From the NCBI RefSeq assembly GCF_921293095.1, contig NC_060257.1:93237449-93301448 (forward strand): DNA of 64,000 nt. The letters are read 5' to 3'. The DNA is from Ischnura elegans (Eukaryota > Arthropoda > Insecta > Odonata > Coenagrionidae). Below the pieces are notes generated by a model. The model worked only from the letters and a program-made list of their open reading frames with translations. It was not told the DNA's origin and did no database searches. Numbering within the stretch: the first letter of the stretch is position 1; the number at the start of each line of letters is the position of its first letter. The position numbers were made by a program, and so were the translations under genes. Of this stretch, positions 1 through 60,987 are shown in pieces.

Positions 1-1122
1 TATGTATCATTGAATGTATTTCCTTTGTATTCATACATATGTAAAAGTGGCACTTGTTACACGATAATACATTTGTATTTTTTGTGTATTTTTGAAATTT
101 GGATACTTATGTAAATGTGGTCAAAAATACACAAAAATACAAATGTATTTATAGTGTAACACGTACCACTTTTACATATGTATGAATATAGAGGAAATAC
201 ATATGTAAATGTGGTCAAAAATACACAAAATATACATTATGTATATTTCCTGTAATACTTGGGAGGTAGATTTTCGTGGCGTCTTGCGAAATGTTCATAA
301 ACATTTTTTCCAGAAATAATATGTTCACAGCAAACGCCAGATTTCCCTATTTTAATGATCATTCATCCATTCGAATTTATACCCAGAAAACTTAAAAATA
401 AATCATATACTGGTCGATGAGAGCAAGGGTAGTAAATATGGCGGCTATTTATGTTAATTTGTAAATGCACGCGAAATACAGACGTATTACATATGTAAAA
501 TTCAGTTTCTATCCGCGAAATATACACATGGAAAAATGGTTCACAATGCATGAAAAATACAAAACATAGTACTTGCACAGATCAAAAGTAAAAGCGAAGT
601 TTGATTTTTTAAACAATATTTTAATGTAACTGTTTAGACAAAAAATTAAATTCTCAATTCCGCGGCTCACTGTCGCTAGGGAAGTGAGTGGGAGTGATGC
701 GGTGGCTACAGTGATACAGTTATAATCTCGTTGACAGTAAACCTCGGCATTTCGTTCGAGACTACGAGAACGTGCTGCAGGAGGAACTCCGGCATCTACG
801 CTAATAAACAAAAGGAAATCCGTTATTAACTAGCTACTGATATGTAGTTAATTTTATATTTGTTTGTATTATTATACTTATTGGAAGAATTGACTTAGTG
901 TTTTAATCCTCGATAACCGTTGCGTGTGGATGGTGTGCTCAACCCGAAGCTATGTTTTGCTGGAAATGTGCTTCACTCCCACACGTTATTGCGATTCGTG
1001 CAAGCCAGCTCCAGCAGTTTCCTGTCACTGGATTATTAAGGTAAGGTATGATTTATCTTTTATTGTATTGTACGCCTACATAGACTACATTAATTATGTT
1101 ATTTGAGTATATTTGGATACAA

Positions 1123-1159
1123 CTATTGGCGCAATGTGGTCAACACATTGCGCCAATAG
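1123..1159. repeat. Perfect 16-bp-stem hairpin in element A
   Basis: CTATTGGCGCAATGTG pairs perfectly with its complement around a 5-nt loop, GTCAA. The hairpin occurs in the other A copies at 11326-11362, 29675-29711, 41884-41920 and 46947-46983. Taking element orientation into account, the loop is flipped in the copies at 11326 and 46947. The stem is fully conserved while surrounding sequence varies. Confidence 0.9.
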
Positions 1160-1692
1160 AGGTAATTATTTTGTTTATGTTTGGCTATTGTTTTCCTTTT
1201 TTGTTGAGTTATGTATCGAGGAGACTGGAGGAATGTTTTCGTTCACGTGTAAGTTGTTTTATCGCTGTTTATTACCACAACCTACTGTATTGTAGTTCTT
1301 GCATTCCTAGTTATCCTATGCTTTAGTCATAACATATCTTTGACCGTAGACTTATCAGCGTAGCCTTGTCACTAATAGATTCCTCGAGGTTCCGAGCGGT
1401 TTTTCCCTCTACTTCTAATTATTTAACGAACAAGAAGTATTGGTCGTGTAATATCGGTTCCCTTAAAGCAAAATGTAATATTTCTTTCATCTTGAAATGC
1501 AGTCAATCAAGGTGCATTTCGTCATTATTATTAACACAAGATAAATACGTAATTTTCATGCGAAAGTTTGTCATTATATGTAAGAAAAAGGTGCGTACGG
1601 GCCAAATTAATTAATTATAATTTTCTTTTCATGCTCTTTCGCACATACCCAGCAGGCGACGATGTAAATAGCTTGGCCTGGACAAGAGGAGA

Positions 1693-2444
1693 ATGGATTA
1701 CGGAAAAGACGACGAAGCAAAGCCAGAAGACCAGGTGGAATTGTTAATACCGAGGTAAGCTTTGAGGGAAATTTTTTTTTACCATAATGGAGAGGGTTCT
1801 TAAAGTTAAGCCTGAAATTATCGGTTATGTATGAAATTTATTTGTTTGAAAATTTGATATCACAAGTTTATATTTTTTCTGTGTGAGTCATCCGCTACTA
1901 AATCATGGTACTAATATATATTAGTATCATGTAATAAATAAGCATACGCATGGATTCACTTTTTCCTAGTTAATTTATATTTAAAAGTAGTCATATGATC
2001 TTTTCTCATATTTCTCATTCTTATTAAGAGAAAGGCTATTAATTTTGTAAAATGAAAGCATATCCCCAAAATATATGATTTCTCAAAGGACAAGGTCAAA
2101 TCTGTGCTAGCTGGGACCTCGACATAATTGGTAAATGAAAAAATTTAAAACTTATGTCTGGAATCTAGCAGAGAAGCCAAACTTTCATTTGCTTTCAGAA
2201 TACAGAATTAGTACTAAAATTACAGACTTCACAGAATACTGACTGCCTATATGAATCGAAAAAAAATAAAATTGAAAGGCCTTGAGCTCCTATATTCAGA
2301 TCTTACAAAAAGATATATTTTTGCATGACTTTTAAACTTGACTTCTTCTTTTCTCGTTTCAGAAAGTGGCTAATTGTGCAGAGTTGGTTTCCTGAATCCA
2401 GGTTTCTTCTTGTGCAATGGGTTACAACGCTTGTTCCGTGCTAA
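1693..2444 (+). CDS. Two-exon 47-residue ORF in element A, possible DUF4806-protein N-terminal remnant
   Basis: Exon 1 (1693-1754) opens with ATG and ends ...CCG AG at donor GTAAGC. Exon 2 (2363-2444) follows a pyrimidine-rich acceptor (TTTCTCGTTTCAG). The frame stays open across the junction to a TAA stop. The protein begins MDYGKDDEAKPEDQ and continues VELLIPRKWL; AATAAA lies 165 bases after the stop. The pattern acidic/V-E-x-x-(I/V)-P-x-x-W-L followed by a W-P stretch resembles, from memory, the N-terminus of invertebrate DUF4806-type proteins; this is a weak similarity. Upstream donors at about 1041 (AAGGTAAGG) and 1251 (CGTGTAAGT) suggest further 5' exons. It may be a truncated relic rather than a working protein. 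Confidence 0.4.
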
Positions 2445-3071
2445 TATGTTTTACTACTTTCCAACTCAAACCATTGTTTGTACTTGATTTATCTTTGTGC
2501 AATTTTTTTAAACTAAGTTTCACCTACTGTTTGCTGGCCCTTAATGCTTGTTAGCAATATTAATGGCCACACTTGTTATTTGTGTGTATTATTTTTTTTT
2601 TCTCTTTGAATAAATGTTTTATTATCTGTATGTTCTGGTTTCCTTATATTTATTCATCCGTTTGATCCATATTGATATTAAGCGGATGTGGGTCAGAAAA
2701 TCAATATGTATAATTCGTGTACGAGGGCCTGCAGATACACATGTATATTACATGTAAGGATATTCAGATTTCCAATTTGTAATACGCATGTATACATACA
2801 TCCTGAGGGACTTTTGAGCCACTTTTACGTGAAATATACAGACGTAATACGATTGTATTCTATTGTATACATATGTATGATTCATGTATGGGTATTCAGA
2901 TTTCCAATTTGTAATACACACGAATACATACATCCATAGGGACTTTTGAACCACTTCTACGTGAAATATACCAATGTAATACGATCGTATTCCATCTTAT
3001 ACATATGTATTTGGTCACGTATTTTTTGTGTATTATTGATGTAATTAATACAAATGCCGTGTTATCTGGGG

Positions 3072-4327
3072 TAGTGCCATTCGCTACTGTTACCTTCGTA
3101 TCATGCACCAAGTTGATTGATAACCACAAAATTTTCACTAGACTCAAACCTCCAAGACCCAAATACGTTTTTCCGGAACCCGTATCTACCAAGGCCCTTA
3201 ACCTATTGGATCCAATAACTAAATCCAGGTACCATCTACCATCACTCGAAACAGACGAATTGGAAAATTGACGAGCCTTGCGAAAGTCGGTATTAATTAT
3301 TTGTTTTCTTTGTGATGACGTGAAGGGACACCACGGGTTGGAGCTCCTAATTCCCTTCCTATCGAAACTCCTTTCCCGTTTCCCGACTGACAATCTCTAC
3401 AAGAAGCTTTCGTCACGTCGCGACGACCGCAACCAAAACAGAAACGATTGAGAGGTAAAGAACACCGAGAAAATCTATGACCAACTCGACCGCAGTTCCA
3501 ACATAGCAGCCGGTTAGACTCTAATGTGGCCGAAGACGTCGAGCCTCCTAACCCCTCCGTGGAGTTAGCCCTCACTAGCGATCGCTGCCTGGTCAAATCC
3601 TGATTCACGGCCGGACTTGCCCTATTCAAAGCGACTGCCTCAATAGCATGGCTATCATGCTTACTCTGAAAGGTTTTCTCGACCTCTCGCACCGACGAAG
3701 CACTTTTCCTCACAGTGGGAGGTTTATAAGCGGCCTCCGGAACCACAGACTGAGAAGCATTCGGTGGGGAACGAAAAGTGCTTTTCAACTTCTGAATGTA
3801 TTCATATTCCTTCCCCAAACAAGATAGCTCCTCTAGTGTATTGAAGTCACCCCGCCTTATGAATAGCTTATACTCGGGTTTCATATTACGATACGCCCAC
3901 CTCAACTGCTCCGCCTCGCTGGGCGTGTGCTCCAACCTATTTAACAGTGTACAAAGCCCTGTCAAATAATCTGCTAACGCTTCACTTGGCCCCTGAGTCC
4001 TTTCCCTTATCTCGCGTTCTAACTGCTCTTGGAAATCATAATCGGTAAACCGATCTTCCAACGCGAACTCAAACTCGGACCAGGAAGTGAATTTGGATCT
4101 ATTCAAACGAAACCAATAAAGAGCCGTATCTTTCAAAAGTTCTGGTAAACCCCTCAATAACTGATCCTGCGATACTCCATAACCTTCCCGCAATTCTTGC
4201 ACTCTGATAACAAAGTTTCCAACACTATCCCCTTTTACCCCAGAAAACTTCACATTCCAGCGCCTAACAATATCCATAACGTGTCGGTTCTGACTCACGA
4301 TTTCATTTGAGGGACTATTTGCTCCAT
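3072..4327 (-). mobile_element. Gypsy-type LTR retrotransposon remnant: gag and start of protease, copy 1
   Basis: A minus-strand fossil. The gag-like ORF (4298-3297) has a retrotransposon gag (capsid-like) region and C-terminal zinc knuckles (CWNCGRVGHRFSRC, then CFGCG). Beyond it is the start of an aspartic protease with the hallmark ALVDTGSGKTYLG. Both sides are bounded by A elements in opposite orientation, so only this piece of the retrotransposon remains here. It is broken. Its partner is 31624-32879, nearly identical. Age is uncertain, but the shared copy is very recent. Confidence 0.85.
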
Positions 4328-7300
4328 CCCAGATAACACGGCATTTTTATTACATCAATAATACACAAAAAATACGTGACCAAATACATATGTATAAGAT
4401 GGAATACGATCGTATTACATCGGTATATTTCACGTAGAAGTGGTTCAAAAGTCCCTATGGATGTATGTATTCGTGCGTATTACAAATTGGAAATCTGAAT
4501 ACCCATACATGAATTATACATATGTATACAATGGAATACAATCGTATTACGTCTGTATATTTCACGTAAAAGTGGCTCAAAAGTCCCTCAGGATGTATGT
4601 ATACATGCGTATTACAAATTGGAAATCTGAATATCCTTACATGTAATATACATGTGTATCTGCAGGCCCTCGTACACGAATTATACATATTGATTTTCTG
4701 ACCCACATCCGCTTAATATCAATATGGATCAAACAGATGAATAAATATAAGGAAACCAGAACATACAGATAATAAAACATTTATTCAAAGAGAAAAATAA
4801 AATAATACACACAAATAACAAGTGTGGCCATGAATATTGCTAACAAGCATTAAGGGCCAGCAAACAGTAGGTGAAACTTAGTTTAAAAAAATGGCACAAA
4901 GATAAATCAAGTACAAACAATGGTTTGAGTTGGAAAATAGAAAAAAATGTTAGCACGGAACAAGCGTTGTAACCCATTGCACAAGAAGAAACCTGAATTC
5001 AGGAAACCAACTCTGCACCATTAGCCACTTCCTGAAAGGAGAAAAGAAGAAGTCAAGTTTAAAATTAATGCAAAAATATATCTTTTTGTAAGATCTGAAT
5101 ATAGGAGCTCAAGGCCTTTCAATTTTATTTTTTTCAATTCATATAGGCAGTCAGTATTCTGTGAAGTCTGTAATTTTAGTACTAATTCTGTATTCTGAAT
5201 GCAAATGAAAGTTTGGCTTCTCTGCTAGATTCCAGACATAAGTTTTAAATTTTTTCATTTACCAATTATGTCGAGGTCCCAGCTAGCACAGATTTGACCT
5301 TGTCCTTTGAGAAATCATATATTTTGGGGATATGCTTTCATTTTACAAAATTAATAGCCTTTCTCTTAAGAAGAATGAGAAATATGAGAAAAGATCATAT
5401 GACTACTTTTAAATATAAATTAACTAGGAAAACGTGAATCCATTGGTATGCTTATTTAGTACATGATACTAATATATTAGTACCATGATTTAGTAGCGGA
5501 TGACTCACACAGAAAAAATATAAACTTGTGATATCAAATTTTCAAACAAATAAATTTCATACATAATAGATAATTTCAGGCTTAACTTTAAGAAACCTCT
5601 CCATTATGGTTAAAAAAAATTTTCCCTCATACCTTACCTCGGTATTAACAATTCCACCTGGTCTTCTGGCTTTGCTTCGTCGTCTTTTCCGTAATCCATT
5701 CTCCTCTTGTCCAGGCCAAGCTATTTACATCGTCGCCTGCTGGGTATGCGCGAAAGAGCATGAAAAGAAAATTATAATTAATTAATTTGGCCCGTACGCA
5801 CCTTTTTCTTACATATAATGACAAACTTTCGCATGAAAATTACGTATTTATCTTGTGTTAATAATAATGACGAAATGCACCTTGATTGACTGCATTTCAA
5901 GATGAAAGAAATATTACATTTTGCTTTAAGGGAACCGATATTACACGACCAATACCCAGATAACACGGCATTTGTATTACATAAATAATACACAAAAAAT
6001 ACGTGCCCAAATACATATGTATAAGATGGAATACGATCGTATTATATCGGTATATTTCACGTAGAAGTGGTTCAAAAGTCCCTATGGATGTATGTATTCG
6101 TGCGTATTACAAATTGGAAATCTGAATACCCATACATGAATCATACATATGTATACAAAGGAATACAGTCGTATTACGTCTGTATATTTCACGTAAAAGT
6201 GGCTCAAAAGTCCCTCAGGATGTATGTATACATGCGTATTACAAATTGGAAATCTGAATATCCTTACATGTAATATACATATGTATCTGCAGGCCCTCGT
6301 ACACGAATTATACATATTGATTTTCTGACCCACATCCACTTAATATCAATATGGATCAAACGGATGAATAAATATAAGGAAACCAGAACATACAGATAAT
6401 AAAACATTTATTCAAAGAGAAAAATAAAATAATACACACAAATAACAAGTGTGGCCATGAATATTGCTAACAAGCATTAAGGGCCAGCAAACAGTAGGTG
6501 AAACTTCCCAGGTAAAAATATTTGGTCTGTAACTGAGCTGGAACAGGTCTGGAACGGGGGTGGAGCTAAAGGTCCGCAGCTGGTCTGGAACTGGGAAGAA
6601 ATTGAAACATTGCTCCAGACCAGTTTGGTCTGCAACTGGTCTGGACAACGGGTGGGTAAACTGGTCTGGACCCAGGTCTGTAACTGATCTGTACTGCTCT
6701 GGAACTGGTCTGTTCTCAGGGGGACTATGTGGTCTGGAACTAATCTGTTCTAGTGACTAGTTGGTTTATACTACTTAACCTGAGACTCAGGATAACTAAA
6801 AGATCAGTCAATCTCATTGATCTGACTGGTTCAGTTCAGCTAGTAAGGAAAAGGGAACAGCCTAAACAAATAAATCTGAGAAGCATACTGAAGGCATTTC
6901 CCAGCCAGCCAAATATGACAGAGATAAAGGCATACTCTCAAAGCTGTAATCTTCTATTGTTACAATAGCATTCCTACATAATCAATTTAATAAATTGTTA
7001 ATTTTGAAAAGCGATGATACATCTCTATGGATGTCTTCAGCTATAAGGGGCAAGAAAGTTTAGTAATTCTTACAACAATCAAAAGCTCAGAGTTGATGTA
7101 TCTCCCGATTATGCCAGTATGAGTGCAAATGGAATTCAGAATTTAACAAATGTCAATCCGATCGTAAGATATTCATTGTACTCACACATGGCAACTGCAT
7201 TTCAGCTGTCAACTCCCATCAAAGTTCTAAGTTGATAAAACATGTTAGCATATGACTTTTGACAAACCATCAATAACATATCCCCTGCAACAGGAAATTT

Positions 7301-7912
7301 TGGATTCGTATAGAGGTGGATGATTTTCTATGCAATAAAATAAATCTATACAGGCAATTTAACATTTATTGATGTACTCAAAACATTCTCTAGTTATAGT
7401 AACACAGTTAACATGTATTGTAGTAGAGAAAACGTCTAGTGTCCATCGCCATCAATCCTGGAAAATGAGAATTGTAACATTTAATAACCAGCTAAGTAAT
7501 AAGTAGGTACTCAAAGTAACTTAAAATTGTTCCACATATTCTCTAATATGGTTATTCAATTTCAAGAAAAACCTTTCATGCACGAATGAATTTATAGTGT
7601 GGCCACGGTCTTAGAAAGTGTGGCTAATACTTTATTATGCCATGAAAAACTGCTAACAATGTGGTTTCTAACGCGAGAAAAGTAACTTGAAATATTTCAA
7701 CTTAATCGATCTGAATGAATTGTATTTTTAATATAAAAGTTAAGCCAAAGATCAACCTAAATTGTAATCACAGTGAGAACGTAGTAATAAATAATCTTTT
7801 ACAACTATTGGGTTGAAAGAAGTAGTTCATTAATTGCATTAGTCCTAAAAATTGTTGATACTCAAGTTCGTTGATTTACTATGGATTGTAAAAATATGTT
7901 CCATGTACTTAC

Positions 7913-8023
7913 ATTAAAATAGTCAGTGCAGCAGAGATGGGTTGATGCTGACCAAGGCATCTTCTTTAAATCTCTACGTGCTGCAAGGAGCCACTTTTTC
8001 CGCAAACCCGGTAAATAAAAACT
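7913..8023 (-). pseudogene. THAP zinc-finger exon relic in element B
   Basis: On the minus strand a 37-codon open stretch reads ...LRKKWLLAARRDLKKMPWSA... then THLCCTDYFN, and ends exactly at donor GTAAGT. The spacing of (R)KKWL, the basic stretch, W-x-x-S, C and F-N matches the second half of a THAP domain, where W, C and (H/Y)F are conserved. Just upstream, in another frame, TPDKVF fits the middle of the domain, so at least one frameshift separates the halves, and the N-terminal Cys pair is not visible. The next exon, after an acceptor near 7459, hits a stop almost at once. A diverged homologue lies at 22128-22240. Confidence 0.6.
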
Positions 8024-9127
8024 TTATCCGGCGTTGATTTCATTGTGATAGTATGCAATTGGCATGAAACAGTATTTTTTTCGATTCCTTTTAGGAAGTT
8101 TTCACTTTGAAAAACGTTATATTTTCCTCATCCATACGTTCTTAAACATACAGTTGCTTGTAAAATACGGTTTTAAGGCACAGATTAATTCACAAAGTCG
8201 GAAACTACTGTATCTACGAGTGTAAACAAAATTCCAGTGCCAATGGCTGTTAGGTCACGTGGTATAGAAGATGGCCGCTGGTTGTTTTGGCGCAAGTTTC
8301 AAAATACGATTTTTAATACGTTATATAATGGGAAAAAATTGTAACTCAAATTTTTAATCCGCAAAATATGTATCTAACGCAGTTACTACATTCTTTTACA
8401 GAACTAAATTTCTCTGGAGCAGGTGCACCTGCTTCTTATAGGTGCGAGGTGTACCTTCACGAAGGTACCTGAGGGACTTTTCAGATATTTTCCTCTTCAA
8501 CAAATGCTTTAATTTTAATGGGTTACTGAAATGATGCATTACGTTCACCTTATTACCATTTTATACACGGTGTTCTGAATTAAGATCCATTTGCATTTGA
8601 GGGGGCAAATAGATACTTAAGTATATTATTTTATGCTTCCATAGCCCAAATAAAGTGTGTTAGCCCTACTAGCTGGAAGATATTAAATTTTTCTTACAAT
8701 CAGCTCATTAACTGCACCTCTTCCCTACAGAAATGCAATGCAATTTTTTGAAAGAAGTAGGTATGTTAGTATGTAACATGTAAGTGTAGATGTTTGGTGA
8801 GTGAAGGAGATCTTAGGAAAGGTAGTGCCATGGAAGAATCCTTCTTCCATGCGGTAGTGCTACCCTTGCCTTACCCTCCCTGGAATGTAGAGCATGGGTT
8901 GATGGAGGGTTAACTACACACCATGGAGGGTACTACCCTTCATTTACCCTATGTCTACCCACCATGGAGGAGTTCATTTTTATTACAGTGGAAGTTGCGG
9001 GCAAAAAGTTTTGCCTGAAATTGGTAAATACATTGGAATTAGAATAAACCATTGCAAACTATTTTATTGACTGCTAACTACTTTCCAAAACCCTATTTGA
9101 CATTTCAACCTTCATTGCTTAAAGTTT

Positions 9128-9187
9128 GCATCTTAAATTGAGACTAATATCAGACGTACTTCTGATATTAGTCTCAATTTATGATGC
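9128..9187. repeat. 60-bp hairpin in element B
   Basis: A 27-bp stem with one mismatch (GCATC...AAATTGAGACTAATATCAGA) surrounds a 6-nt loop, CGTACT. It also occurs in the second B copy near 37679-37738. It could be a fold-back insertion or a structural element of B. Confidence 0.85.
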
Positions 9188-12100
9188 AGCCCTTTCTAAT
9201 GCCATCCAAATAACGCAACTCTCCACAAGCCATGATTGTGGGCAGTGGGTACCTTTGAACCCATGTGAAATTCATCTATGAAATAACAAATATAAAATGG
9301 TAACCCTTCTTGAAAAAAAATTAATGGACATTAAAAATTGACCACTCCATAGCCCAGGATTCCTAATTCCATTAAGTAGCAATACCTGATATACATTATA
9401 ATAATTTCACTGTTACAAATAAATTTAAGAGCAATTGCAGATGACCAAATAAAATATCAGATCTCATGTCACATCAGAATCCAGACCAGTTGACTCACTT
9501 GGAATTTTTCCAGAATAGTTCCAGACCAGTTGAAACTCATAGAATATTTCAGAATAGTTAAAGAATAGATCCAGACTAGATGCAGACCATCGAAAATTAC
9601 AGTACAGTTACAGACAGTTGATCCAGATCAGTTACACACCATCGAATATTACAGCACAGTTACAGACCAGAATTCCAGACTAGTTACAGACCATTTTCCT
9701 TTGCCTCTCTGAAATCCAGACCAGTCCAGTTCTGTTACAGACCAGTTACAGAACAAAATTTAGCCTTTCAGACCAGTTACAGACCAGATCCAGATTAGTT
9801 ACAGACCAAATATTTTTACCTGGGTTAGTTTAAAAAAATGGCACAAAGATAAATCAAGTACAAACAATGGTTTGAATTGGAAAATAGAAAAAAATGTTAG
9901 CACGGAACAAGCGTTGTAACCCATTGCACAAGAAGAAACCTGAATTCAGGAAACCAACTCTGCACAATTAACCACTTTCTGAAACGAGAAAAGAAGAAGT
10001 CAAGTTTAAAAGTCATGCAAAAATATATCTTTTTGTAAGATCTGAATAGGAGCTCAAGGCCTTTCAATTTTATTTTTTTTCAATTCATATAGGCAGTCAG
10101 TATTCTGTGAAGTCTGTAATTTTAGTACTAATTCTGTATTCTGAATGCAAATGAAAGTTTGGCTTCTCTGCTAGATTCCAGACATAAGTTTTAAATTTTT
10201 TCATTTACCAATTATGTCGAGGTCCCAGCTAGAGCAGATTTGACCTTGTCCTTTGAGAAATCATATATTTTGGGGAAATGCTTTCATTTTACAAAATTAA
10301 TAGCCTTTCTCTTGAGAAGAATGAGAAATATGAGAAAAGATCATATGACTACTTTTAAATATAAACTAACTAGGAAAACGTGAATCCATTGGTATGCTTA
10401 TTTAGTACATGATACTAATATATTAGTACCATGATTAAGTAGCGGATGACTCACACAGAAAAAATATAAACTTGTGATATCAAATTTTCAAACAAATAAA
10501 TTTCATACATAATAGATAATTTCAGGCTTAACTTTAAGAAACCTCTCGATTATGGTTAAAAAAAAATTTTCCCTCATACCTTACCTCGGTATTAACAATT
10601 CCACCTGGTCTTCTGGCTTTGCTTCGTCGTCTTTTCCGTAATCCATTCTCCTCTTGTCCAGGCCAAGCTATTTACATCGTCGCCTGCTGGGTATGCGCGA
10701 AAGAGCATGAAAAGAAAATTATAATTAATTAATTTGGCCCGTACGCACCTTTTTCTTACATATAATGACAAACTTTCGCATGAAAATTACGTATTTATCT
10801 TGTGTTAATAATAATGACGAAATGCACCTTGATTGACTGCATTTCAAGATGAAAGAAATATTACATTTTGCTTTAAGGGAACCGATATTACACGACCAAT
10901 ACTTCTTGTTCGTTAAATAATTAGAAGTAGAGGGCAAAACCGCTCGGAACCTCGAGGAATCTATTAGTGACAAGGCTACGCTGATAAGTCTACGGTCAAA
11001 GATATGTTATGACTAAAGCATAGGATAACTAGGAATGCAAGAACTACAATACAGTAGGTTGTGGTAATAAACAGCGATAAAACAACTTACACGTGAACGA
11101 AAACATTCCTTTAAACAATTTTTTCTGCTCTTAATTAAGAGAAGAAAAAATGTAACTTCAGCCGCGAAGCACGGAATTACTATACGACGCATAATCTATT
11201 AATTTATACGTACAAGATTGACATTACTATGTTTTACCATATAACTTCAATGGACACCAGTCTCCTCGATACATAACTCAACAAAAAAGGAAAACAATAG
11301 CCAAACATAAACAAAATAATTACCTCTATTGGCGCAATGTGGTCAACACATTGCGCCAATAGTTGTGTCCAAATATACTCAAATAACATAATTAATGTAG
11401 TCTATGTATGCGTACAATATAATAAAAGATAAATCATACCTTACCTTAATTATCCAGTGACAGGAAACTGTTGGAGCTGGCTTGCACGAATCGCAATAAC
11501 GTGCGGGATTGAAGCACATTTCCAGCAAAACATAGCTTCGGTTTGAGCACACCATCCACACGCACCGGTTATCGAGGATTAAAACACTATGTCAATTCTT
11601 CCAATACGTATAATAATACAAACAAATATAAAATTAACTATACATCAGTAGCCGGAGTTCCTTCTACAGCACGTTCTTGACGTTCTCGTAGTCTCGAACG
11701 AAATGCCGAGCTAACTGTTAACGAGATTATCACTCCCACTCACTTCCCTAGCTTGTTGCGACAGAATTGAGAATTTAATTTTTTTGTTTAAACAGTTAAT
11801 TTAAAATATTGTTTAAAAAATTAAACTTCGCTTTTACTTTTGCGCTGTGCAAGAACTATTTTTTGTATTTTTCATGTATTGTGAACCATTTTCCATGTGT
11901 ATATTTCGCGGTTGGAAACTGAATTTTACATATGTATTACGTCTGTATTTCGCGTGCATTTACAAATTAACATAAATATGGTCGCCATACTACCCTTGCT
12001 CACATCGATCAGTATATGATTTATTTTTAAGCTTCCTGGGTATAAATTCGAATGGATGAATGATCATTGAAATGAGGAAATCTGGCGTTTGCAGTGAACA

Positions 12101-12735
12101 TATTATTTCTGCAAAAATGTTTCTGAACATTTCACTAGACGCCACGAAAATCCACCTCTCAAAAATTACAGAAAATATACATAATGTATATTTTGTGTAT
12201 TTTTGACCACATTTACATATGTATTTCCTCTGTATTCATACATATGTAAAAGTAACAAGTGTTACACGATATTTACATTTGTATTTTTGACCACATTTAC
12301 ATAAGTATTCAAATTTCAAAAATACAAATGTATTTATCGTGTAAACACGTACCACTTTTACATATGTATGAATACAAAGGAATTACATCCAATAATACAT
12401 ATGTATTACACATGTTATACATAACAAAAATACATATGTATGTGACCCATGAAAATACAATATAAATACATTATGTATATCCAAATGTGTGCTGTTGGGG
12501 ATACTTCTTGTTCGTTAAATAATTAGAAGTAGAGGGCAAAACCGCTCGGAACCTCGAGGAATCTATTTGACAAGGCTACGCTGATATAAGTCTACGGTCA
12601 AAGATGTTATGACTAAAGCATAGGATAACTAGGAATGCAAGAACTACAATACAGTAGGTTGTGGTAATAAACAGCGATAAAGCAACTTACACGTGAACGA
12701 AAACATTCCTTTAAACAATTTTTTCTGCTCTTAAT

Positions 12736-13715: not shown

Positions 13716-13938
13716 TAATATTTTTATCACCTGAATCAAAACATTATTACTTCTGGAGTACGTAGTTCACGCTTTTTGTTGAGAACCATTTTTCGCGATT
13801 AAATGAAAAGGGAAAATTTTCAAGCGCTCGAAAGTGCGAGGGGTAAGTGTGAATGCCAGGAAAAACTTCGCGTGACGTCGTTCTGCTTCCCGCTGCCGCA
13901 AGTTGTGAATTAGAATTATAATACAAGTTATTGTTGTG

Positions 13939-16620: not shown

Positions 16621-16639
16621 ACAGTAAATGAATGTGACC

Positions 16640-17580: not shown

Positions 17581-17599
17581 CCTGGGCACCCCTCTCGGT

Positions 17600-18035: not shown

Positions 18036-18038
18036 TTA

Positions 18039-47800: not shown

Positions 47801-48198
47801 TATGAACATTTCGCAAGACGCTACGAAAATCTACCTCCCAAGTATTACAGGAAATATACATAATGTATATTTTGTGTATTTTTGACCACATTTACATATG
47901 TATTTCCTCTGTATTCATACATATGTAAAAGTGGTACGTGTTACACGATAAATACATTTGTATTTTTGTTTATTTATGACCACATTTACATAAGTATCCA
48001 AATTTCAAAAATACACAAAAAATACAAATGTATTTATCGTGTAACATGTGCCACTTTTACATATGTATGAATACAAAGGAAATGCATTCAATAATACATA
48101 TGTACTACAGATGTAATACATAACAAAAATATATATGTATGTGACCCATGAATATACAATATATATACATATGTATATCCAAATGTGTGTTGTTGGGG
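44856..48198 (-). mobile_element. Element A, copy A7 (complete)
   Basis: It starts CCCAGATAACACGGCATTTG and ends GTATATCCAAATGTGTGTTG followed by TTGGGG. It differs from A3/A6 by several percent and carries a 28-bp palindromic insertion (46556-46583). The hairpin loop (46947-46983) is flipped relative to A1. No clear target duplication (TCA left, AAC right). No intact transposase. Confidence 0.82.
46556..46583. mobile_element. Ultra-short 28-bp palindromic insertion in A7
   Basis: The reverse complement begins CATAGAGTAAGTATA and the second half mirrors it with one mismatch. CTATTAG is repeated on both sides (46549-46555, 46584-46590). All other A copies read CTATTAGTGAC without the insert, which defines the empty site. 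Confidence 0.8.
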
Positions 48199-49511: not shown

Positions 49512-50680
49512 CCCAGACAGCACACATGCTACAGTATACATTAAATATACGTATACGTAGTGTATAACATGCGTATACAGTAGAAGATACACGTATACTG
49601 TATACGTATAAAAACCTTCTACCCACCATCTACCAAATGTATATAACGCAGCAAATGTCCTCCTACCACGCATATACAGTATACGTATACAGTATACAAG
49701 ACATATATATATACAGTATACAAGACGTATATATGTATGAAAGCAGAAAAATTCCTGCAGAATTCCAGGTTTTCTAGGGAAATTTTACTAAATTCCAGGT
49801 CAATCTTACGAGATAAAAGCTATGTATACGAATTTTACAACACTACATTTACTTAATACTTTTAATTAATTCTATAATTATATATTATCCTAGTTAAAAT
49901 TCCTACATTTTTAAAAGAAGTTATTCACTTATTTTATGAATGCAACACTTGGAATATCAACAAATTTGCCAAAATTGAAAAAGTTATCTAATCAGTGTTT
50001 GCACTCATTAAGTGCAATTTAAAATTCAATCAATGCACTTTGAAGCATACATGTAAGTATATATAATAGGCCTGAAAATTGGCCTTGCACTGACAAATTT
50101 CGTGTGAAACGAGTTTGAAATAAAAGATTTTAAATTCCAAGCAGGAGCAAAAATTCATTGATATTTTGAGTGACCAAAAATCATGCATATTTCCAGATTC
50201 CCAATCACTGAACACCCTGAGTATATTTTTCTTGATTGAGCAAAAACCTGAATGCAGTTGTTGACATGCACTGCTGTATTAAAACTGAAATTAAAGTAGC
50301 AAAACAAAAATTAAATCTCTGTTCTGGTGCCAGTGTGTATTTAGTGCAAGCGTGGAAGTACTAGTACATCCATTTTGTCATTTGTGTGAGTGATATCTCC
50401 AGCATTTCAGAGTGTTTACGTACAGTTGAGAACATCCTGCCTAAGCAGCAGAGAGCGTTCATAAACATAATGTAACACGCTAGTGTGTTTTGCATTGTTC
50501 TGTGGGAACACTTACCAGTTTGTTTGAGACTTCTTGCTGACAATAAATTGAATAGAGAAAAATATCTGTGAGATTCAGGTCTTACAGGGTCTACAGAGGA
50601 AATGGAAAACACATGTGTGCTGTTAAAACAAAATAATTATATTTAACTAAATATTACACATATTTTTACTAATATACCAC

Positions 50681-50833
50681 ACAATCTCAGAAATACATAA
50701 GATATTGAATTCATTAGACACAATAAAGGGGCCAAGCCCGGATGGTAAACCACATTTTGTGCTTAATTATCGTCAAGAGGTTTTAGTGGATCCTCTCACA
50801 GTATTATTTAATCAGTCTATTCATCCAATGTAA
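50681..50833 (+). pseudogene. LINE reverse-transcriptase fragment captured in element D
   Basis: A 50-codon open stretch reads ISEIHKILNSLDTIKGPSPD, then G..P..VLNYRQEVLVDPLTVLFNQS and stops. K-G-P-(G/S)-P-D-G followed by L-x-P-L-x-x-L-F-N-x-S is the start of the RT domain in Jockey/I/CR1-like LINEs. Only this block remains. The homologue in F is at 57292-57444. Confidence 0.7.
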
Positions 50834-52951
50834 AAAAAAACATCTTATCGTATGAGTAAATTCACTAAGCATAGTAAGTTAAAAGTCAATTTAAGAAGTA
50901 GTAAGAATTTAGATGTCAAATATAACAGGACAAATATTTTCTGAATATTTTGATGAGTGTTGATAAATAACAAATACCGTTAGAAATGCCTTTATTCAAT
51001 GCAAACGAAAATAAAGACCAATAGGATCAATATCAATGTTTTTGCCTGATTATCCTTCCTTAAGGTCACAAGAATCCATGAAGAACAAGCTCACTTTTCC
51101 TCGTATTTCTTCATCATTGGCAATTTGGAAAATTCTTCCTTACTACACCTGTAAATAATATCACATAAACTTTATTAGAATCTATTAGTGATACATCTAA
51201 TTTGTCTAGGTAGTTAAAGTAAGTCACTTTGTTAAAAAGTAATCTCTATTCATGGGATTTTCCCTTAAGCTATATAAATACCAACTTTCAACAAAGGATA
51301 TTTCGAAAAATTCCCCATCAGTTCTATATGTAAAAAACGATAAGTTATTCACCTTGAATAATCGAAGTACTAAATTGATTTGAGAATTTAATTCTTAACA
51401 ATTTAAAACCAATTTGTCTAAACCTAAAGAGTGAAATACCCTCTGATCTCCAACAAATATGATTACATTTTAAAGGAAGCAACACTAATGGCACAACAGC
51501 CAATTAAAAAAATGTAAAGAACTTTAAATGACTTAATAAATAGTAAATTCGAGAAATGTTTGTTCACATTCCTCCCACACTACGGTGATTAAATGCGTCA
51601 AGCACATAAATAAATTAAAGTTTACGCAAATGCAAAGTTTTTCAATCAATAGAAGATGGATCCCTCAGTCTCAGAATGTGTGAGAAGGTTGAAAATATTA
51701 AGAGTTTGCGTCATTTAAAATAAAAAATGTGGCAATGGCAACACTTCTACTTACCCAGATTCTGATGAAGGAAGCGAAAGTAGCACTTGAGCGGTTGATA
51801 AACTTTCATTGGACAAGTTTCGCAAACAGCAAACACAACACTACAAAGTTAAGTTATAACGGTAATTGATTGCCTAGGTGCAGGTGAAACAAGTAAATGA
51901 AGAACATTAAGAGGCTGATAAACTTCGGCAGGATCAATTTCGCAAACGACGAACACAACACAGTGAACGCAACATTATTCGCGTGGTCTTTGATTGTGAA
52001 AGCGGTTATGGACGCATTTACGTTTGCATATGTTTGTATCTGTGGAAATCGACTATCGACGGAATCCACTATCGATAGGTCGAAATCACGGGCGGGAGTC
52101 CAAATCTTGGCATTCAAAAAAATTAAGTTTCGCGTTATGACTTGAGGAATAAATTCCACTGAAAAATATCTTTTTTGTTTCATCGCCTCAGTAGATAAAA
52201 AAGCACGATTGAAATCACATTTCGAAGAGCATTTTTCTTCATGAAAATAGGGACTTTTCATGGCAGGATTTTTTACATCTTAAGGCAGTTCATTGATTTT
52301 TTAAATTAATCTGCATTTCTCAATAACCCAGGCGGACGGCGTTCTTGGGTGTTCCGAACAGAAATGATAAAATACTCTCCAGCACCGTTATCAGCCTCCT
52401 TCATTTTTGCCAGGGCTGCCTGAAGCCAACCGGGGAAAATAAATTCACTGATGAATCAGTTTAAAGACATTAAATGAGACGACGTCTTTATCCAATGAAA
52501 CCAGAAGGAGAATAAGAAGAGAGTAGCGGCTCGAGCCGATACCTTTACAAAGAATGAAGATACATGTACAAACGTAATTATTTGCTTTGCCAACCTCGCT
52601 GCCGTGAATGACACCTGCCCTTTGCGAACAGGTCCCACTCCATGTTTTCAGGGAAGAGTTAGCTGGTAAGGTTTTCCAACTAAATTCCAACAGTGTTTTT
52701 CACGTGACACCATCACGTGGACTACCATTCGTCTGGCTCCTACCCTTCCACATATTTGGCGTGAGTGGCCCTTCCTGAGGTAGTTTAGATTTATTCCTGT
52801 CAGTGTAGCTCTTGGGGTCATAGGAGCACGCAAGTAACGGAAAGGTTATAGCCCATTGGAAAGGACGCTGTGTATACTGAAGGCTACATATGGAAATAAT
52901 ATACGGACAGAGTAACCTTTAAAGGGCACTAATTGTTTATTAATGGCTACA

Positions 52952-53204
52952 CAGTAGCGGATACAGAAAAAAACTCTAGAGGGGGGCGCAAAAGATATCT
53001 TGACCAACCTTTACTTATATCCTAAAAAAATAATCAAGTCACATGCAAAGTTTAAGAAAGTGTTATTTGAACTGATTATACGCACATGAAATACAAAGCC
53101 ATCTTATGACATAAAAAAGTTAAAATTGTACTCCTGCAATGTTTGGTTATGCGGGCGGCCAGGAAAGGGTTGGGGGGCGCGCCTCCCATATGCATCCGCC
53201 ACTG
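52952..53204. mobile_element. hAT-like MITE in element D
   Basis: The ends are CAGTAGCGGATACA and, complemented, CAGTGGCGGATGCA, followed by a G-rich block on each side (AGAGGGGGGCGC / GGAGGCGCGCCCCCC). Flanks TGGCTACA and AGATTACA could be a decayed 8-bp duplication. 253 bp, non-coding. Confidence 0.55.
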
Positions 53205-55423
53205 AGATTACATATGGAAACAGTATATGAAAGGTATACATATACCTCTCAGATACTGTTTCCATATGTAGCACATACGTATACAGTATATGAAAGGTAT
53301 ACAGATACCTTTCGTATACTGTATACGTATACGCTTCAGGATACTGTTTATGTATACTTAGAATCTAAAACATGTATACAGTTTCTCAAGGAAACAGTAT
53401 ACACCTGGTATACTTACGGTATATGTATACCGTTACCAGTGTGCTGTCTGGGTGGTTATGTATGAATATGTAATTTGGTTAAGGTGGTACAAGTGGTACG
53501 CCGAATAAAGATGGCGGTTTGAGAAGTTTCCATAGATCGTTCGTGTTATTGCCACATACTTGTTCTATTCCCAATTGTCTTGAACCTATGTGTTTAGTTA
53601 TGGTCTGGGCACCACCAAATATAAGTTTAAACAGTAGTTCTAGTGATGAAGGTGGATTATCCAACAGTCATAAATCTACACAAGTTGAACCTGTAGCCGG
53701 TCCTAGTAAACCTGCAAAAAGGAGGAATTGCCGATTTCATCAGCAGGAACTGACAAAAAGTGACAGTGAAAGTGACACCCAAGTTGCACATAAAAAAGGT
53801 AAAAAACTACAAAGAATTGTTTATTTTAGTGACAGTGCAGATGAGTCCGAAAGCGATGACGTTGGCATTCAAAGTGAAAAACTAACGCCAAAATGGATTG
53901 ATGTCAGTGTGAATGACCAATCTCCGAAAAGGTATCCCTTCTCCACTGGACAAGTGTGCGTTGGTCCACAGGTTCCCGGTGACTATGTGAAGCCCGTTGA
54001 ATTTTTTCAGTTGTTTTTTACAGACGCCTTGATAGAAAGCATAGCCTGTGAAACAAATATCTATGCTAAGAGTAAACTTCACCATAGGATACTAGCCAAG
54101 AGATCAACTTGGAATAGTTGGACTGACGTCACCGCTAAGGAAATAAAGGCATTTCTCGGCATTATATTGAACATGGGCATTATTCATCAACCAAATATAC
54201 AGGATTATTGGTCGTTAGAGTTTGTCTCTCATGTACCATTTTTTCGTGCAATCTTCACAAGGGAAAGGTTTTTGCAAATTTTTGAATGCTACATCTAAAA
54301 AATGAAAAAGCGGGGATAAATGATACAAGAACCAGAAAAGAGAAGGCCAGCTCGTTTTTGAATTATTTAGATATGAAGTTCAGAGAGAAATTCTGTCCAG
54401 GGCGCGAGATAGCCATTGATGAGTCTGTTGTGGGTTTCAAGGGCAAGGTGCGCTTCATGTACAACCCCAAAAAACCCACCAAATGGGGAATTCGTATCCA
54501 TGTCCTCGCAGATTCCCGATGTGGTTACATCTATTCTTTTGTTCCTTACTTCGGTTCTGTAACATCTGACTCCCTTGCTAGATCTGATCTACCATTTACT
54601 TCAAAAATTGTACTAGAACTTTATGGCAGATTGAAGCAATCTCTTCCTGAAGCTCAGGGATTTAATGTGTATTTACTGATAGGTTCTACACAAGTGCAAC
54701 ACTTGCTAAGGAGTTGCTAAATATAAGTGCCACTTGACAGGAACTCTGATGCCCAACAGGAAAGACAACCTAGCCCTAATAAAAAATCCCAGGATGAAAA
54801 AAGGAGAGTTGGTTGCCTATAGCGACAGGGACACATTACTCCTCTCATGGAAGGACAAAAGAGTGGTTACATTACTAAGCACCTGGGACACTTCTGAAAC
54901 GGAGGTAGTGGAAAGGAGGGTTCGAGGTAGTGCTGAAATTCAGAGAGTAGTCAAGCCGAAAGTCGTTGTGAACTACACCAAATTTATGGGTGGCGTGGGC
55001 ACTGCTGATCACTATACAAGTACCTATTGTTTCATAGGAAAGACATTGAAATGGTGGCGAAAGCTATTTTTCTGGGGCTTAGAAGTTAGTGCAGTAAATT
55101 CGTACATTTTATACAAAGAGTGCAAAAAAATGAAAGGTGAAAAGTGTATTTCGCATGTGAAATTCATTAGGGAGTTAGTTGAAGAACTTGTTGGAGATTA
55201 CAGGATGGGTGGTACAACTCCCTGGGGCTGACCAAAACCATCAGACCCTCTACAAAGGTTGAATAGAAAACACCATATCATCATGCCATATTCTGAAAGA
55301 AAACACAAGGACTGTGTAGTTTGTTCAAAAAGAAACGTTAGAGGAGGAAGAAGAGAGACAATTTACTTTTGCGAAACATGTGAAAACCACCTAGGGCTTC
55401 ATGTGGGGGAATGTTTTAGAAGG

Positions 55424-55867
55424 CAGGGGCGGATCCAGGATTTCTTTCTGGAGGGGGCACAAGCAAAACCGTATCCAGGATTTTGTTCTGGGGGGGGGGG
55501 GGGGGGCACAAGGATATTTCATAATACAAAACGAACGCAATGATAATGGGACCGTATTAAAAATCTTGCATATTTTAAAAGCCTGTTCACACGGTACATT
55601 AACACGTACGGGTTAATGTCTGAATGTATGAATGCGAAAATGAACGCCAAAATGCACCCAACTTGTGCGAATGCATGCACAGAAAATAAAACCTGTTCTT
55701 GTTTGGTTCATGCATTCGTACATGTTCCGTTCCGGTCCACCAAAATTTCACGCAAACGTACATTAACTCGTACGTGTTAATGTATCGTGTAAACAGGCCT
55801 TTAGGGTCTTGGGGGGGGGGGCGGGGGGGGGCACGTGCCCCCGTGCCCCCCCCTGGATCCGCCAATG
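55424..55867. mobile_element. hAT-type MITE inside the piggyBac pseudogene
   Basis: The TIR CAGGGGCGGATCCAGG (left) matches CATTGGCGGATCCAGG (right, complement). The 8-bp target TTAGAAGG is duplicated at 55416-55423 and 55868-55875. G-tracts flank a nested MITE. 444 bp, non-coding. Confidence 0.85.
55578..55800. mobile_element. 223-bp MITE with TTA duplication, nested in the hAT MITE
   Basis: TIR of about 40 bp with few mismatches: AAAGCCTGTTCACACGGTAC (left), AGGCCTGTTTACACGATACA (right, complement). TTA is duplicated at 55575-55577 and 55801-55803. A TTA duplication suggests a PIF/Harbinger-like source. It contains the self-complementary word ACATTAACACGTACG. Confidence 0.8.
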
Positions 55868-55968
55868 TTAGAAGGTATCACTATTGGAAAAATTTAGAGA
55901 TTAATGAATATTTGATGCTTATTACTATATCTGAAAGCCTAATTTGTCTAATAAACACTTCATTTTAG

Positions 55969-56511
55969 AGAAATATAAAACTTCATTTCATAAGATATTC
56001 TCATCCTCAAATTCAGGGGCTTTTAACAATATAATAGGGAACTTGCATATATTTCAGATATGATCAATAGCCCCAAAATTATATAAAAATAAATGTTTGC
56101 ATACCTCGGTGAAAGTTTTTTTATTATTATTTATGACGTGGTTTGCGATATTTAATGCATCAAAGTTCACGAGAATTTTCAAATGCAAGTGGGAATCGAA
56201 AACGCCCGATGATTGGCTGGTAGAAAAGTGACGTCATAGTTCAGTACGAGGAGGCACGGCGGCACGGCCGTAGTAGAGGTCCAAGGTTCTTAGAGTAAGT
56301 ATAGTCTAAGAACCTTGGTAGAGGTCTAGAGGTTGCATACTTGAATACAAGCGACGGCGTGGTTATGTTTCATTAATTGAAGTGCAGACGTATCGGAGTA
56401 GTTCATTGTGACTTCAGGGCTATTATTTGATCTATTTCTTCTCCATTGAAAGCGATAGATTGCTTAAAGATGAAGGAATATGGTTATTCCTAGGCTGATC
56501 CTAGCAAGCTT
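55969..56511. other. Spacer between piggyBac relic and element F
   Basis: AT-rich sequence except for a short GC-rich stretch near 56240-56275. It contains a 37-bp palindromic insertion (56282-56318). No gene seen. Confidence 0.4.
56282..56318. mobile_element. Ultra-short 37-bp palindromic insertion
   Basis: The left half begins CAAGGTTCTTAGA and the right half is its complement (TCTAAGAACCTTG plus G), around GTAAGTATAG. The 8-bp target TAGAGGTC is duplicated at 56274-56281 and 56319-56326. The core AGAGTAAGTATA is shared with the 28-bp insertion at 46556. Confidence 0.85.
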
Positions 56512-57291
56512 CCTAGTCAGCACACAAAGTATATAATATGTATTATTTACTTTGAGACAAAGTGAATCTTAAGTAAATGATACGTATTGCTTTAATATTG
56601 AATACATCAATAATACGTCTATATGTCCCACTTTATTTTGTAAATAATACGTATTACTAATACGTCAATTTACGTAAATGATATACATAAATAATACGTC
56701 AATGATATATGTATCTGGAATGTAAATTTTCATCCAACAACATTGCCTAGATCTCCACATAATATCCGAAGTTGCCGCCAAATGCCATCTATGTAATATC
56801 CTTTTTTATATTACCTAATATCCAATTTTCATCCAATAATATTGCATGAATATCCAAAAAGTATCGAAATTAGCAAAACAAAAACTAAAAACTCTGTTCT
56901 GGTGGCAGTATGTATTTAGTGCAATCATGTAAGTACTAGTGAATCCATTGTGTCATTTAGTGTGAGGGACAGCTTCAGCATTTTGAGGCGTTTACATGCA
57001 TTTGAGAACATCCTGTCTAGGAAGTAGAGAGCCTTCATCAACATAATATAACATGCTAATTTGTTTCGCATTGTTCTGGAACACTGTGGGAACACTTACC
57101 AGTTTGTTTTAGACTTCTACCTGACAAATAATTGAATAAAGAATAAAATCAGTGAGATTCTGGATTCTGGTCTCGTCAGTGAGATCTGGATTAACATGGT
57201 CTACGGAGAAAATAGAAATCACATAGAGTGCTGCTTTGAAAAAACAATTTTATTTAACTAAATATTACACATATTTTTACAAATATACCAC

Positions 57292-57444
57292 ACAATCTCA
57301 GAAATATATAAGAAATTGAATTCATTAGACACAACAAAGGGGCCAGGCCCAGATGGTATTCCACCTCTGGTGCTTAATTATTGTCAAGAGGTTTTAGCGG
57401 ATCCTCTCATGGAATTATTTAATCAGTCTATCCATCAAATGTAA
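57292..57444 (+). pseudogene. LINE reverse-transcriptase fragment captured in element F
   Basis: The open stretch reads LDTTKGPGPDGIPPLVLNY, then CQEVLADPLMELFNQSI and stops. It is closer to the LINE consensus (PGPDGIP) than the D copy. Same boundaries as in D, so it was acquired before D and F separated. Confidence 0.75.
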
Positions 57445-57866
57445 AAAAACGATCGTATTGCATGAGTAAATTCAATAAGCATAGTAAGTTAAAAGTCAGT
57501 TCAAGAAGTAGTCAGAATTTCGATTACAAATAAAACCAGCCAAATATTTTCTGAATACTTTGATAAGTGTTGATAAATAGCAGATACCGTAAGAAATGCC
57601 CTTGTTCAACATATACGAAAATAAAGGCTAATAGGATCAATGTTTTTGCCTGATCATCCTTCCTTAAGGTCAAAAGAATCCATGAAGAACCAGCTCACTT
57701 TTCCTCGTATTTCTTCATAATTGGCATTTGGAAAATTCTTCCTTACTACACCTGTGAACAATATTAGATAAACACTTTATTAAAATCTATTAGTGATACA
57801 TCTAATTTGTCTAATTAAAGTAATCTCTATTAATGGGATTTTCCCTAAAGCTATATAAATGCCAAC

Positions 57867-59628
57867 AGGGCCATTTCATCTCAAATCAGGCAGATTGCGC
57901 AAAATCATGTCAGGTGACCATCACCGATTTCTCTGAAATTTATATATGTGAAAGCAGTATCCTTATGATGAATAATGATGCCTTTATCTCAGCTCAGAAC
58001 CGAACCGTCATAAAGTTACCTTCCTTTGAACATTGCAGTGTCAGGCCTCAGAGTAAAAAAATGAAAAATCACATAAATGCTGATTACTAAGGAACCATGG
58101 CCTGTAATGCAGTGGTAATTGTTTCATTTTGAAGAAAATTCATTTATGCACATTATGGCATAACTTGAAAGTCATTTGAAGCAATAATAAACAAATAGGA
58201 CTTGTTTAAACAATAAAAATTAGTCATTATTTAACAATTTATTACTAAAAAAAGGCCACCTTTTATTTTCTTCTATTTCGAAGTAGGCCCTTAGTCCTAG
58301 TTTTTTTTAGCTCTGCATTATATGTCAATTGTATGTTTGGTTGAAACTGGAAAATCAGCCATATTATGTTGTTTAGATTAACTTGTGTAAAGAATGATAA
58401 AATTTGAACATGGCCACTCATACACATTTCACTCTCACTTCTTCAAAAGCTGCTGAGACATTATTTTCCCATGAAGTACATGTTTGATATTTATCACTTT
58501 CTTTAAGTAAGTAAATTCTTGCCTACTATGAAACTTGCATTTTAAACATTCTAATTAGCTCAATTTAGACAAAAAATAATTAGGTGAAAGGAGCACCTGT
58601 ACATGGCATCAACACTTTCATGTCTTGGTAGTTAACAGACATGGGACAACTACAGCTCTCTCTGTAATCCACACAATCCAACAGGCTGTGACACTAACAA
58701 AATCAGATATAAAGACATACAGTACTCAAAATCTCACCATGAATGACTTCATCGTGTGCTTCCGAAAAACATGGTGAATTTCTAAAATTACTGCAGTGTG
58801 TTTAGAAGGGAATGACATTAGTGTCTTGCGTATACATCCACAAGGTCCATCGAATTGTTTCACATGGCCCAAAGTAGGAGACTTATGTGAAGTGCCATTG
58901 AAAAATACTCTATGCAAATTGCGACTCATTCACCGTTTCCAGCCATTAGCAGTGGGTGTTTGCACACATTGGATGCCGTGGAAGTAAACAAGATTGAACT
59001 TGCTTTCACTCAATATATGTAACCAATCATTCAGATATGAACTTTTCACTGTTATGAATGCTAAGTAGAATGGAACTTCATTTTTTATCCCCATGAAGGT
59101 ATGCAATCTTGGTGTAAAAGAGTCGAAAACATGCCTAACTTTGACATGCCTTAAAACAAAAAGTATAAAAATATTACCTTTTTTTATTTTTTTAATTGAA
59201 AGCAGAGCATTTGAACTACCCGCTGAGAAATTTTAAAGAAAATAAAAGGTGGTCTTTTTTTAGTAATAAATTGTTAAATAATGACTAATTTTTATTGTTT
59301 AAACAAGTCCTATTTGTTTATTATTGCTTCAAATGACTTTCAAGTTATGCCATAATGTGCATAAATGAATTTTCTTCAAAATGAAACAATTACCACTGCA
59401 TTACAGGCCATGGTTCCTTAGTAATCAGCATTTATGTGATTTTTCATTTTTTACTCTGAGGCCTGACACTGCAATGTTCAAAGGAAGGTAACTTTATGAC
59501 GGTTCGGTTCTGAGCTGAGATAAAGGCATCATTATTCATCATAAGGATACTGCTTTCACATATATAAATTTCAGAGAAATCGGTGATGGTCACCTGACGC
59601 CCCTCTGCCTGATTTGAGATGAAATCCC
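57867..59628. mobile_element. 1.76-kb element with about 380-bp inverted repeats, inserted in F
   Basis: The ends AGGGCCATTTCATCTCAAAT and, complemented, GGGATTTCATCTCAAATCAG belong to arms that match from 57867 to about 58275 and from about 59225 to 59628. CCAAC flanks both sides (57862-57866, 59629-59633), and D has the uninterrupted site CCAAC-TTTCAACAAAGG. The middle 950 bp has no clear gene. Superfamily unknown; a 4-5 bp duplication argues against Tc1/mariner and hAT. Confidence 0.8.
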
Positions 59629-60092
59629 CCAACAGTCAACAAAGGAAATTTCGAAAAAATCAGTTCTAAGTGTTAAAATTGACAAGTTATTCACATTGAA
59701 AATTCGAAGTACTAATTTGATTTGAGAATTTAATTCCCAATAACTTAAACCCAATGTGTACAAACCTAAAGACTAAAATACCCTCTGATCTTCAACAAAT
59801 ATGATTACATTTTGAAGGAAGCTAAACTTATGACTCGACAGCGAATTTAAAAAATGGAAATAACTTTTAATGACTAAATAAATAGTTAAGCCGGGAAGTT
59901 TTTCTTCATAATCCTCCCACCATACAGTGATAAAATGCCTCAAGCATAAAAATAAAATTAAGTTGAAGCATATGCAACGTTTTTCAATCCACAGAAGATG
60001 GATTGAAAAGATGATTGACTGAGCTGTCTCAGGAAGTGTAAGAAGGTTGAAAATATTAAGAAAACGCTTCACTTAAAATAAAAATGGTTGCA

Positions 60093-60221
60093 ATGAGCAA
60101 CACTTCTACTTACCCAGATTCTGATGAAGGAAGAAAAAGGAGAACTTCAGCGGTTGATAAACTTTTGTTGGAGAAGTTTCGAAAAAAACAACACTACAAA
60201 TTTCGTTGTAACGGTAGATGA
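60093..60221 (+). CDS. 42-residue basic ORF in element F
   Basis: It begins MSNTSTYPDSDEGRKRRTSA and continues VDKLLLEKFRKKQHYKF. About 50 bases downstream the same theme recurs as GKRRALEADKLRQDQFRLRR, so the segment is duplicated. The D counterpart (about 51750-51980) is interrupted. It may be a relic exon of the element's gene or noncoding; no domain recognised. Confidence 0.25.
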   Translation: MSNTSTYPDSDEGRKRRTSAVDKLLLEKFRKKQHYKFRCNGR

Positions 60222-60987
60222 TTACGTAGGTGCTGGTGAAACAGGTAAAAGAAGAGCTTTAGAGGCTGATAAACTTCGGCAGGATCAATTTCGCTTACGA
60301 CGAACACAACACAGTTAACGTAACATCAATCGTTGCAGCAGGAGGAAGAGAAAGTAGTGATGGGACGCATGTGCGCCATGTGTGTATCGACGGAAATCGA
60401 CTATTGGTGGAATCGACCATCGATGGTATCCACAATCGATAGGTCGAAATCGCGGGCGGGAGTCAATCTTGGCATTCAAAAAATTAAGTTTCGCCTTATG
60501 ACTTGAGGAATAAATCCCACTGAGAAATATATCTTTTTTGTGTCATCGCCTCACTAGATTAAAAAGCACGAATGAAATCACATTTTGAAAAGCATTCTTC
60601 TTTATGAAACGAGGAAAACTTTTCATGGCAGGATTTTTTTTACATCTTAAGGGTATTGATTGATTTTTGAATAAATCTGCATTTCATAGCAACCCAGGCG
60701 GACAGCGTTCTTGGATGTTCCGAACAGAAATGATAAAACAAACGTGGTAGGCATTTTCTCGGTCGTTCACCTGCGTTCCAACGCAACCTAGTTGGATAGC
60801 GCTCATAAGTGTTCCAGAACAGAAAGGCGCAAACACCATAGGTAGGTGTTCTACTGCGTTCCTATAGTGCATTTCTGGAACAGCGTTTGCGAACGTGCAA
60901 AAAAAGAGGAACCCCCTGCTCCGTACCACTAGAAAGAAGTCTCTCTTGGGGCTCAGAACAGCAGTCATACTAATTGTAAGACGAAAA

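Follow-up and report, generated by a model that had tools for sequence, protein, structure and literature searches.

The 64,000-nucleotide window of Ischnura elegans DNA analysed here is a pile-up of several transposon families, some nested in one another, and these families are probably non-autonomous animal CACTA/EnSpm-type cut-and-paste transposons of the CCC-ended TRC group. We identified seven complete elements in five families (A three times, and B, C, D and G), all running from CCC to GGG, with matched short flanks in six of the seven. The first-pass annotation had described one plan of CCC or CCCC ends, 2-bp target duplications and word-filled arms, and all six terminus sequences that it named were present in the window. 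The plan stood as regards CCC ends, word arms and, mostly, a 2-bp duplication, but family A may duplicate 3 bp and one complete A copy (A5) is unmatched at its flanks; CCC or CCCC starts were confirmed for A, B, C, D and G, but the left end of F starts CCTAG and E has one end only. The observation is real, and the architecture is of a kind already published, so that the group is not an unnamed one: in the portions of the literature cited here, a CCC core with a 2-bp duplication is the signature of animal TRC elements. Since resemblances between individual ends carry little weight, it is the combination of CCC ends, 2-bp duplication and word arms that carries the case; the superfamily assignment, a transposase acting in trans and the function of the arm words are what we infer.

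When the window was scanned for CCC/GGG pairs, B, C, G and D emerged with equal 2-bp flanks and with inverted ends, the latter matching at 15 of 15 positions in B, C and G and at 14 of 15 in D. Twelve pairs with at least 13/15 matches and equal flanks were listed, of which five were element ends (B, its duplicate, C, G and D); the remaining seven sit inside inverted A copies and are not element ends. When 40 windows were simulated with a first-order Markov chain, pairs 1.5–12 kb apart that reached at least 13/15 averaged 2.35 per window (maximum 5) and those that also had equal flanks 0.15 (maximum 1), and the equal-flank inverted CCC/GGG ends of the window are thus far above simulation. Within each of B, C, D and G the inverted ends starting CCC match each other, and family A has CCC at both ends, the two ends being only partly alike. 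Two exact end patterns sought in viral contigs gave no match each.

A 2-bp duplication had been claimed wherever an empty or reconstructible site exists. Empty sites, namely uninterrupted A copies in the window, proved this for B, which duplicated TT, and for C, which duplicated TA, but A is ambiguous between 2 and 3 bp. Element B (3318 bp, positions 6507–9824, forward strand) has empty sites at 4849–4908 and 2486–2545, and a second copy lies at 35058–38375 (forward strand) within a segmental duplication. Element C (2002 bp, 39366–41367, forward strand) has its empty site at 10781–10840 in the near-identical duplicate; the flanks of C by themselves would also allow a 5-bp duplication, TAATA, but the empty site gives 2 bp. 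The TG duplication claimed for D (3941 bp, 49512–53452, forward strand) was seen as matched TG flanks, the flanks alone being its basis, as are the AT flanks of the GTATACAATTG element, G (10527 bp, 13125–23651, forward strand). The segmental duplication pairs position 1 to about 11100 with 28553–41670, the first 11 kb of the duplicates differing by 11 mismatches and 5 gap columns before they diverge past about 11100. BLAST pieces had made the duplication appear to end at the C insertion (1–10810 against 28553–39365), but in a block alignment the match extends beyond C, as far as about 11100, and C is no more than an interruption of one copy. B is in both duplicates and C only in the second; the simplest reading is that C inserted after the segmental duplication, though an assembly error could also lie behind its absence from the first duplicate.

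Family A is the one in which the length of the duplication is in question. A4, a complete element of 3169 bp (28455–31623, reverse strand), sits between the reverse-transcriptase (pol-like) and gag-like frames of an LTR retrotransposon that we take to be Gypsy-type, the gag match having been scored on the duplicate frame at 3297–4346. It had been said to duplicate TA, and TA/TA flanks were indeed seen, but family A fits 3 bp about equally, the A4 flanks lengthening to 3 bp when the C that opens its left end is assigned to the flank. A second complete copy (5955–12500, forward strand; empty site 10870–10930) carries B and is itself inserted in another A, of which the left part (4327–5953, forward strand) is interrupted by this inner A, resumes at 12501–12735 and is then lost. 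The inner A is flanked by AT if its start is placed one base earlier, or by ATA at 3 bp. The third complete copy, A5 (44856–48198, forward strand), is without matching flanks at its true ends, and further A copies lie within the segmental duplication. The ambiguity comes down to the base before CCCAGATAACACGG, which is T at 4327, A at 5954, A at 44855 and C in A4, the next 14 bases being identical; if that base is flank, both A4 and the inner A have a 3-bp duplication, and if it belongs to the element, both have 2 bp. The third flank base agrees in A4 and in the inner A, which by arithmetic has a chance of about 1/16. Against 3 bp, A5 is unmatched, and an A at 34505–43140 is flanked by AT at either end, yet by ATA and ATT when three bases are compared; we excluded this copy from the count of seven complete elements because it looks mosaic, its right part no longer agreeing with the partner in the duplication and being followed by another A stretch. 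A 3-bp duplication in family A is thus only suggested, 2 bp fitting about equally. The families may thus differ in part in duplication length, which the first-pass annotation had said would count against a common plan, but a 3-bp duplication in A would not remove a common origin, since duplications of 2 to 5 bp occur across the CACTA-Mirage-Chapaev-Transib group according to the cited part of PMC12730594. We also noted a word array, ATCTAATAGACAACTACAGTAGAC (24 bp × 4.4, 43676–44854), which has the right end of an A on one side and the left end of an A on the other and whose internal repeats recur at spacings of 261 and 354 bp.

For the arms, we took the best 10-letter word in the outer 450 bases, allowing one mismatch and counting both strands, and compared its count with 20 shuffles. 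The description of the arms as filled with repeated words was upheld in 10 of 13 arms, which exceeded all 20 shuffles, but the left arms of A and E and the right arm of F only equalled them; B, C, D and G are enriched at both ends. Among ten control slices, one (16800–17250) exceeded its 10 shuffles, by one copy. The words are mostly confined to the outer few hundred bases, C having some at 600–900 as well, and the word arms of G extend over about 600 bp on the left and 300–400 bp on the right. As had been proposed, most words belong to one family only, but GTATAC-like words overlap among D, G and A. One word given earlier, GAACAGGCAA, has no exact match in the window; the best words of C were TCTGTTCCCT and ACAGTGAACA. 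The B word, TGGTCTGGAA, is polar and mirrored, with a plus-to-minus ratio of 10:1 in the left 600 bp and 0:16 in the right, and those of G and D are found in either orientation. Self-complementarity, described as frequent, was clear in half of the 12 arms that were folded as single DNA strands: the left arm of B, both arms of D, both of G and the left arm of F were more stable than shuffles (z from -2.9 to -8.0), but the other six were not (z from -1.7 to 0.5; five controls, -1.5 to 0.35).

The ends of the families are unequally close to one another. Among the A-left, D, E and F ends the nearest neighbour differs at 1–2 of 11 bases, and among random CCC pairs only 0.11% have at most one mismatch and 0.66% at most two. 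The B end is 2 mismatches from A-left, C is 6–7 from all others and G is 3–8, nearest to B, so that beyond CCC the end sequence in common with other families is little for C and slight for G. This spread would suit separate superfamilies that converged on CCC ends, with A, B, D, E and F as one group and C, perhaps also G, as something else. We find such convergence rather doubtful, as CCC together with short duplications is common to all, word arms occur at both ends in C and G as they do in B and D, and G, judged by eye with one C removed from its CCCC, is 2 mismatches from B.

Six-frame Pfam scans, with stops as X, covered A4, one copy of B, C, D, G (outside its nested piggyBac, with E included) and 55232–60993; they returned six matches only, all below cut-off (E-values 0.11–0.33), and no transposase domain, including Transposase_21 or related CMC types, was found in the scanned A, B, C, D and G copies or the F region. 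With no transposase in these copies, and with the piggyBac frame inside G belonging elsewhere (see below), they look non-autonomous; a missing domain is then expected, and the classification rests on structure. Judging from the papers cited here, CACTA elements are well studied in plants and much less so in animals. Animal CACTA-related TRC transposons were published in 2006 (PMC1636069), and the sections of that report cited here relate SmTRC1 and the insect TRC elements to plant CACTA and describe termini that begin with CCC and direct repeats of 2 bp (seen in 7 of 14 SmTRC1 copies); SmTRC1 also carries a tandem-repeat region and, within its TIR, a repeated motif. The TRC elements (SmTRC1 and those of Tribolium and Aedes) thus resemble the window elements in their CCC core, 2-bp duplications and repeated motifs, and also in that some copies are inserted in LTR retrotransposons; unlike the window copies, they encode a Transposase_21 protein, and their ends differ in detail (Tribolium, CCCTAGTAGCACC...; Aedes, CCCAGTCAAC). 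The excerpted account of Hydra Spongebob_HMa / EnSpm-4N1_HM, filed as TRC/CACTA, gives CCCAGCCAACATTGAC with a 2-bp duplication (PMC4298943); its CCCAG... ends, its duplication and the lack of an intact transposase found are as in the window, but its end departs from the window ends at 2 or more of 11 bases.

Comparison of ten window ends with these three published ends gave at best 2 mismatches over 10–11 bases, whereas the Repbase rule, as quoted in the cited part of PMC4455052, allows at most 1 over positions 1–11 together with the same duplication length. The D and A-left ends are 2/11 from the Hydra end, with 1.4% of 715 background CCC starts as good, and F-left resembles the Tribolium end (0.6% of background as good); as the best of 30 comparisons, neither figure is significant alone, and several window ends score like background against the published ends. 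Classification by ends has been used for Daphnia CACTA elements (PMC2884549, in excerpt). A text search of the literature with six end sequences found none on transposons, judged by the titles and abstract beginnings listed. The CACTA-EnSpm-Mirage-Chapaev-Transib group has mostly CA..TG ends besides its 2–5 bp duplications (PMC12730594, in the part cited); neither CACTA nor CA..TG end letters are found in the window elements, whose ends are CCC, and the published animal TRC ends, as excerpted, depart likewise. The same source allows that Harbinger-related elements can duplicate 0, 2 or 3 bp, which would favour placing the families in PIF/Harbinger-ISL2EU-Spy (the PHIS group), where a 2-bp duplication is known from some lineages. 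We consider membership of that group unlikely: the combination of a CCC core and a 2-bp duplication is, in the sections cited, published for CACTA-related animal elements, and an end with a CCC core was not met in a narrow sample of the ISL2EU literature. No coding copy of the families, in which a PHIS DDE transposase might be sought, was found in the window scans.

Two further features lie within element G. The left end of E (CCCAGATAGCATGC) and its arm occupy 14151–14300 (forward strand), with a word count not above shuffles, and no E right end was found in the window scans for matching ends. Directly before it, at 13930–14150, are two copies (77%) of a 111-bp unit, the E end starting immediately after the second, with AT before it. 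The other is a nested piggyBac element (TTAACACTTAGC...GCTAAGTGTTAA, 19367–21915, reverse strand) with TTAA flanks and a DDE_Tnp_1_7 frame at 19726–21474; the transposase inside G therefore belongs to its own TTAA-flanked element and not to G, and placing the families keeps it from being mistaken for theirs. A broken piggyBac-type transposase (DDE_Tnp_1_7) in three frames lies between D and F at 53483–55231, and no TTAA-flanked pair around it was found in the scan. That the families themselves derive from piggyBac, whose ends can start CCC, is scarcely credible despite these two sets of DDE_Tnp_1_7 frames, as TTAA does not flank A, B, C, D or G, the frame inside G has a separate element with different ends and the broken one lies after D and before F.

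If the families are of the CACTA/EnSpm type, as we favour, they would be moved by cut and paste through a transposase whose gene lies at another genomic site and which recognises CCC...GGG ends, and insertion would duplicate 2 bp, or perhaps 3 bp for A. By analogy with maize En/Spm, in which the transposase acts with TNPA, a protein that binds subterminal repeats (PMC2613891, in the sections cited), the arrays of words that lie within a few hundred bases of the element ends may be subterminal sites for a TNPA-like accessory DNA-binding protein, and each family's word could have its own protein, hence words that differ between families while ends do not. The arms had been suggested to be transposase-binding sites; CACTA arms are known as binding arrays according to the same excerpts, so the idea of binding-site arms is sound and, for plants, already in print; here the words are likely sites of accessory proteins acting in trans. 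Conserved ends with differing arm words are likewise described there for plant CACTA elements: in soybean the subterminal repeats differ between families, and the authors propose co-diversification with the binding proteins. The plant elements (En/Spm, Tgmt* and Tgm1) resemble those of the window, as far as the cited sections go, in having subterminal arms packed with words that change from family to family within a species and in asymmetric, hairpin-forming arms, and the 3-bp ATA duplication of Tgmt* may be compared with family A; they differ in ending CACTA and not CCC and in duplicating 3 bp. Family-specific word arms are not described for animal CACTA elements in any of the matches listed from the open-access literature. 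Nested families with proved empty sites and contrasting words are material on the evolution of arm arrays and their binding proteins, the points of most interest being the arm switch between D and F and the possible 3-bp duplication of A.

The rapid replacement of arms around conserved ends that had been suggested finds support in a single pair, D and F. The D core at 50293–52372 (forward strand) matches F at 56867–57866 and 59629–60738; this core of about 2 kb is 81–84% identical, with one 50-bp piece at 94%, and the first 14 bases of D and F have 2 differences. D has arms of a GTATAC word that fold on themselves, and F has its left end (CCTAGTCAGCACAC) and left arm at 56512–56866 (forward strand). 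While the cores align with a score of 368 against a shuffle maximum of 30, the left arms align no better than shuffles (26 against a maximum of 35), nor does the right arm of D against 60739–60987 (20 against 30). As no F right end was found, GG sites in 60700–61300 matching family ends at no more than 8/14, only the left arms give a firm comparison. This single pair is the window's best case of arms replaced around kept ends, and a natural test of arm replacement. One may speculate that CCC-ended CACTA-type elements are modular, with arm arrays swapped around a kept core and ends, as in D and F, so as to escape a shared accessory binding protein, and that in the A lineage the cut shifted by one base on one side to give 3-bp instead of 2-bp duplications; we offer this joint proposal tentatively, as a possibility. 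Nested in F is a further element (57867–59628) with inverted repeats of about 364 bp (99.5%) and near-matching flanks around CCAAC, and D is without the insert at the corresponding site. Beyond the F core, a Copia-type gag frame runs from 60970 to 62305, and a GGGG ending at 60995 is a candidate F end that could instead belong to the long terminal repeat of the Copia-type retrotransposon.
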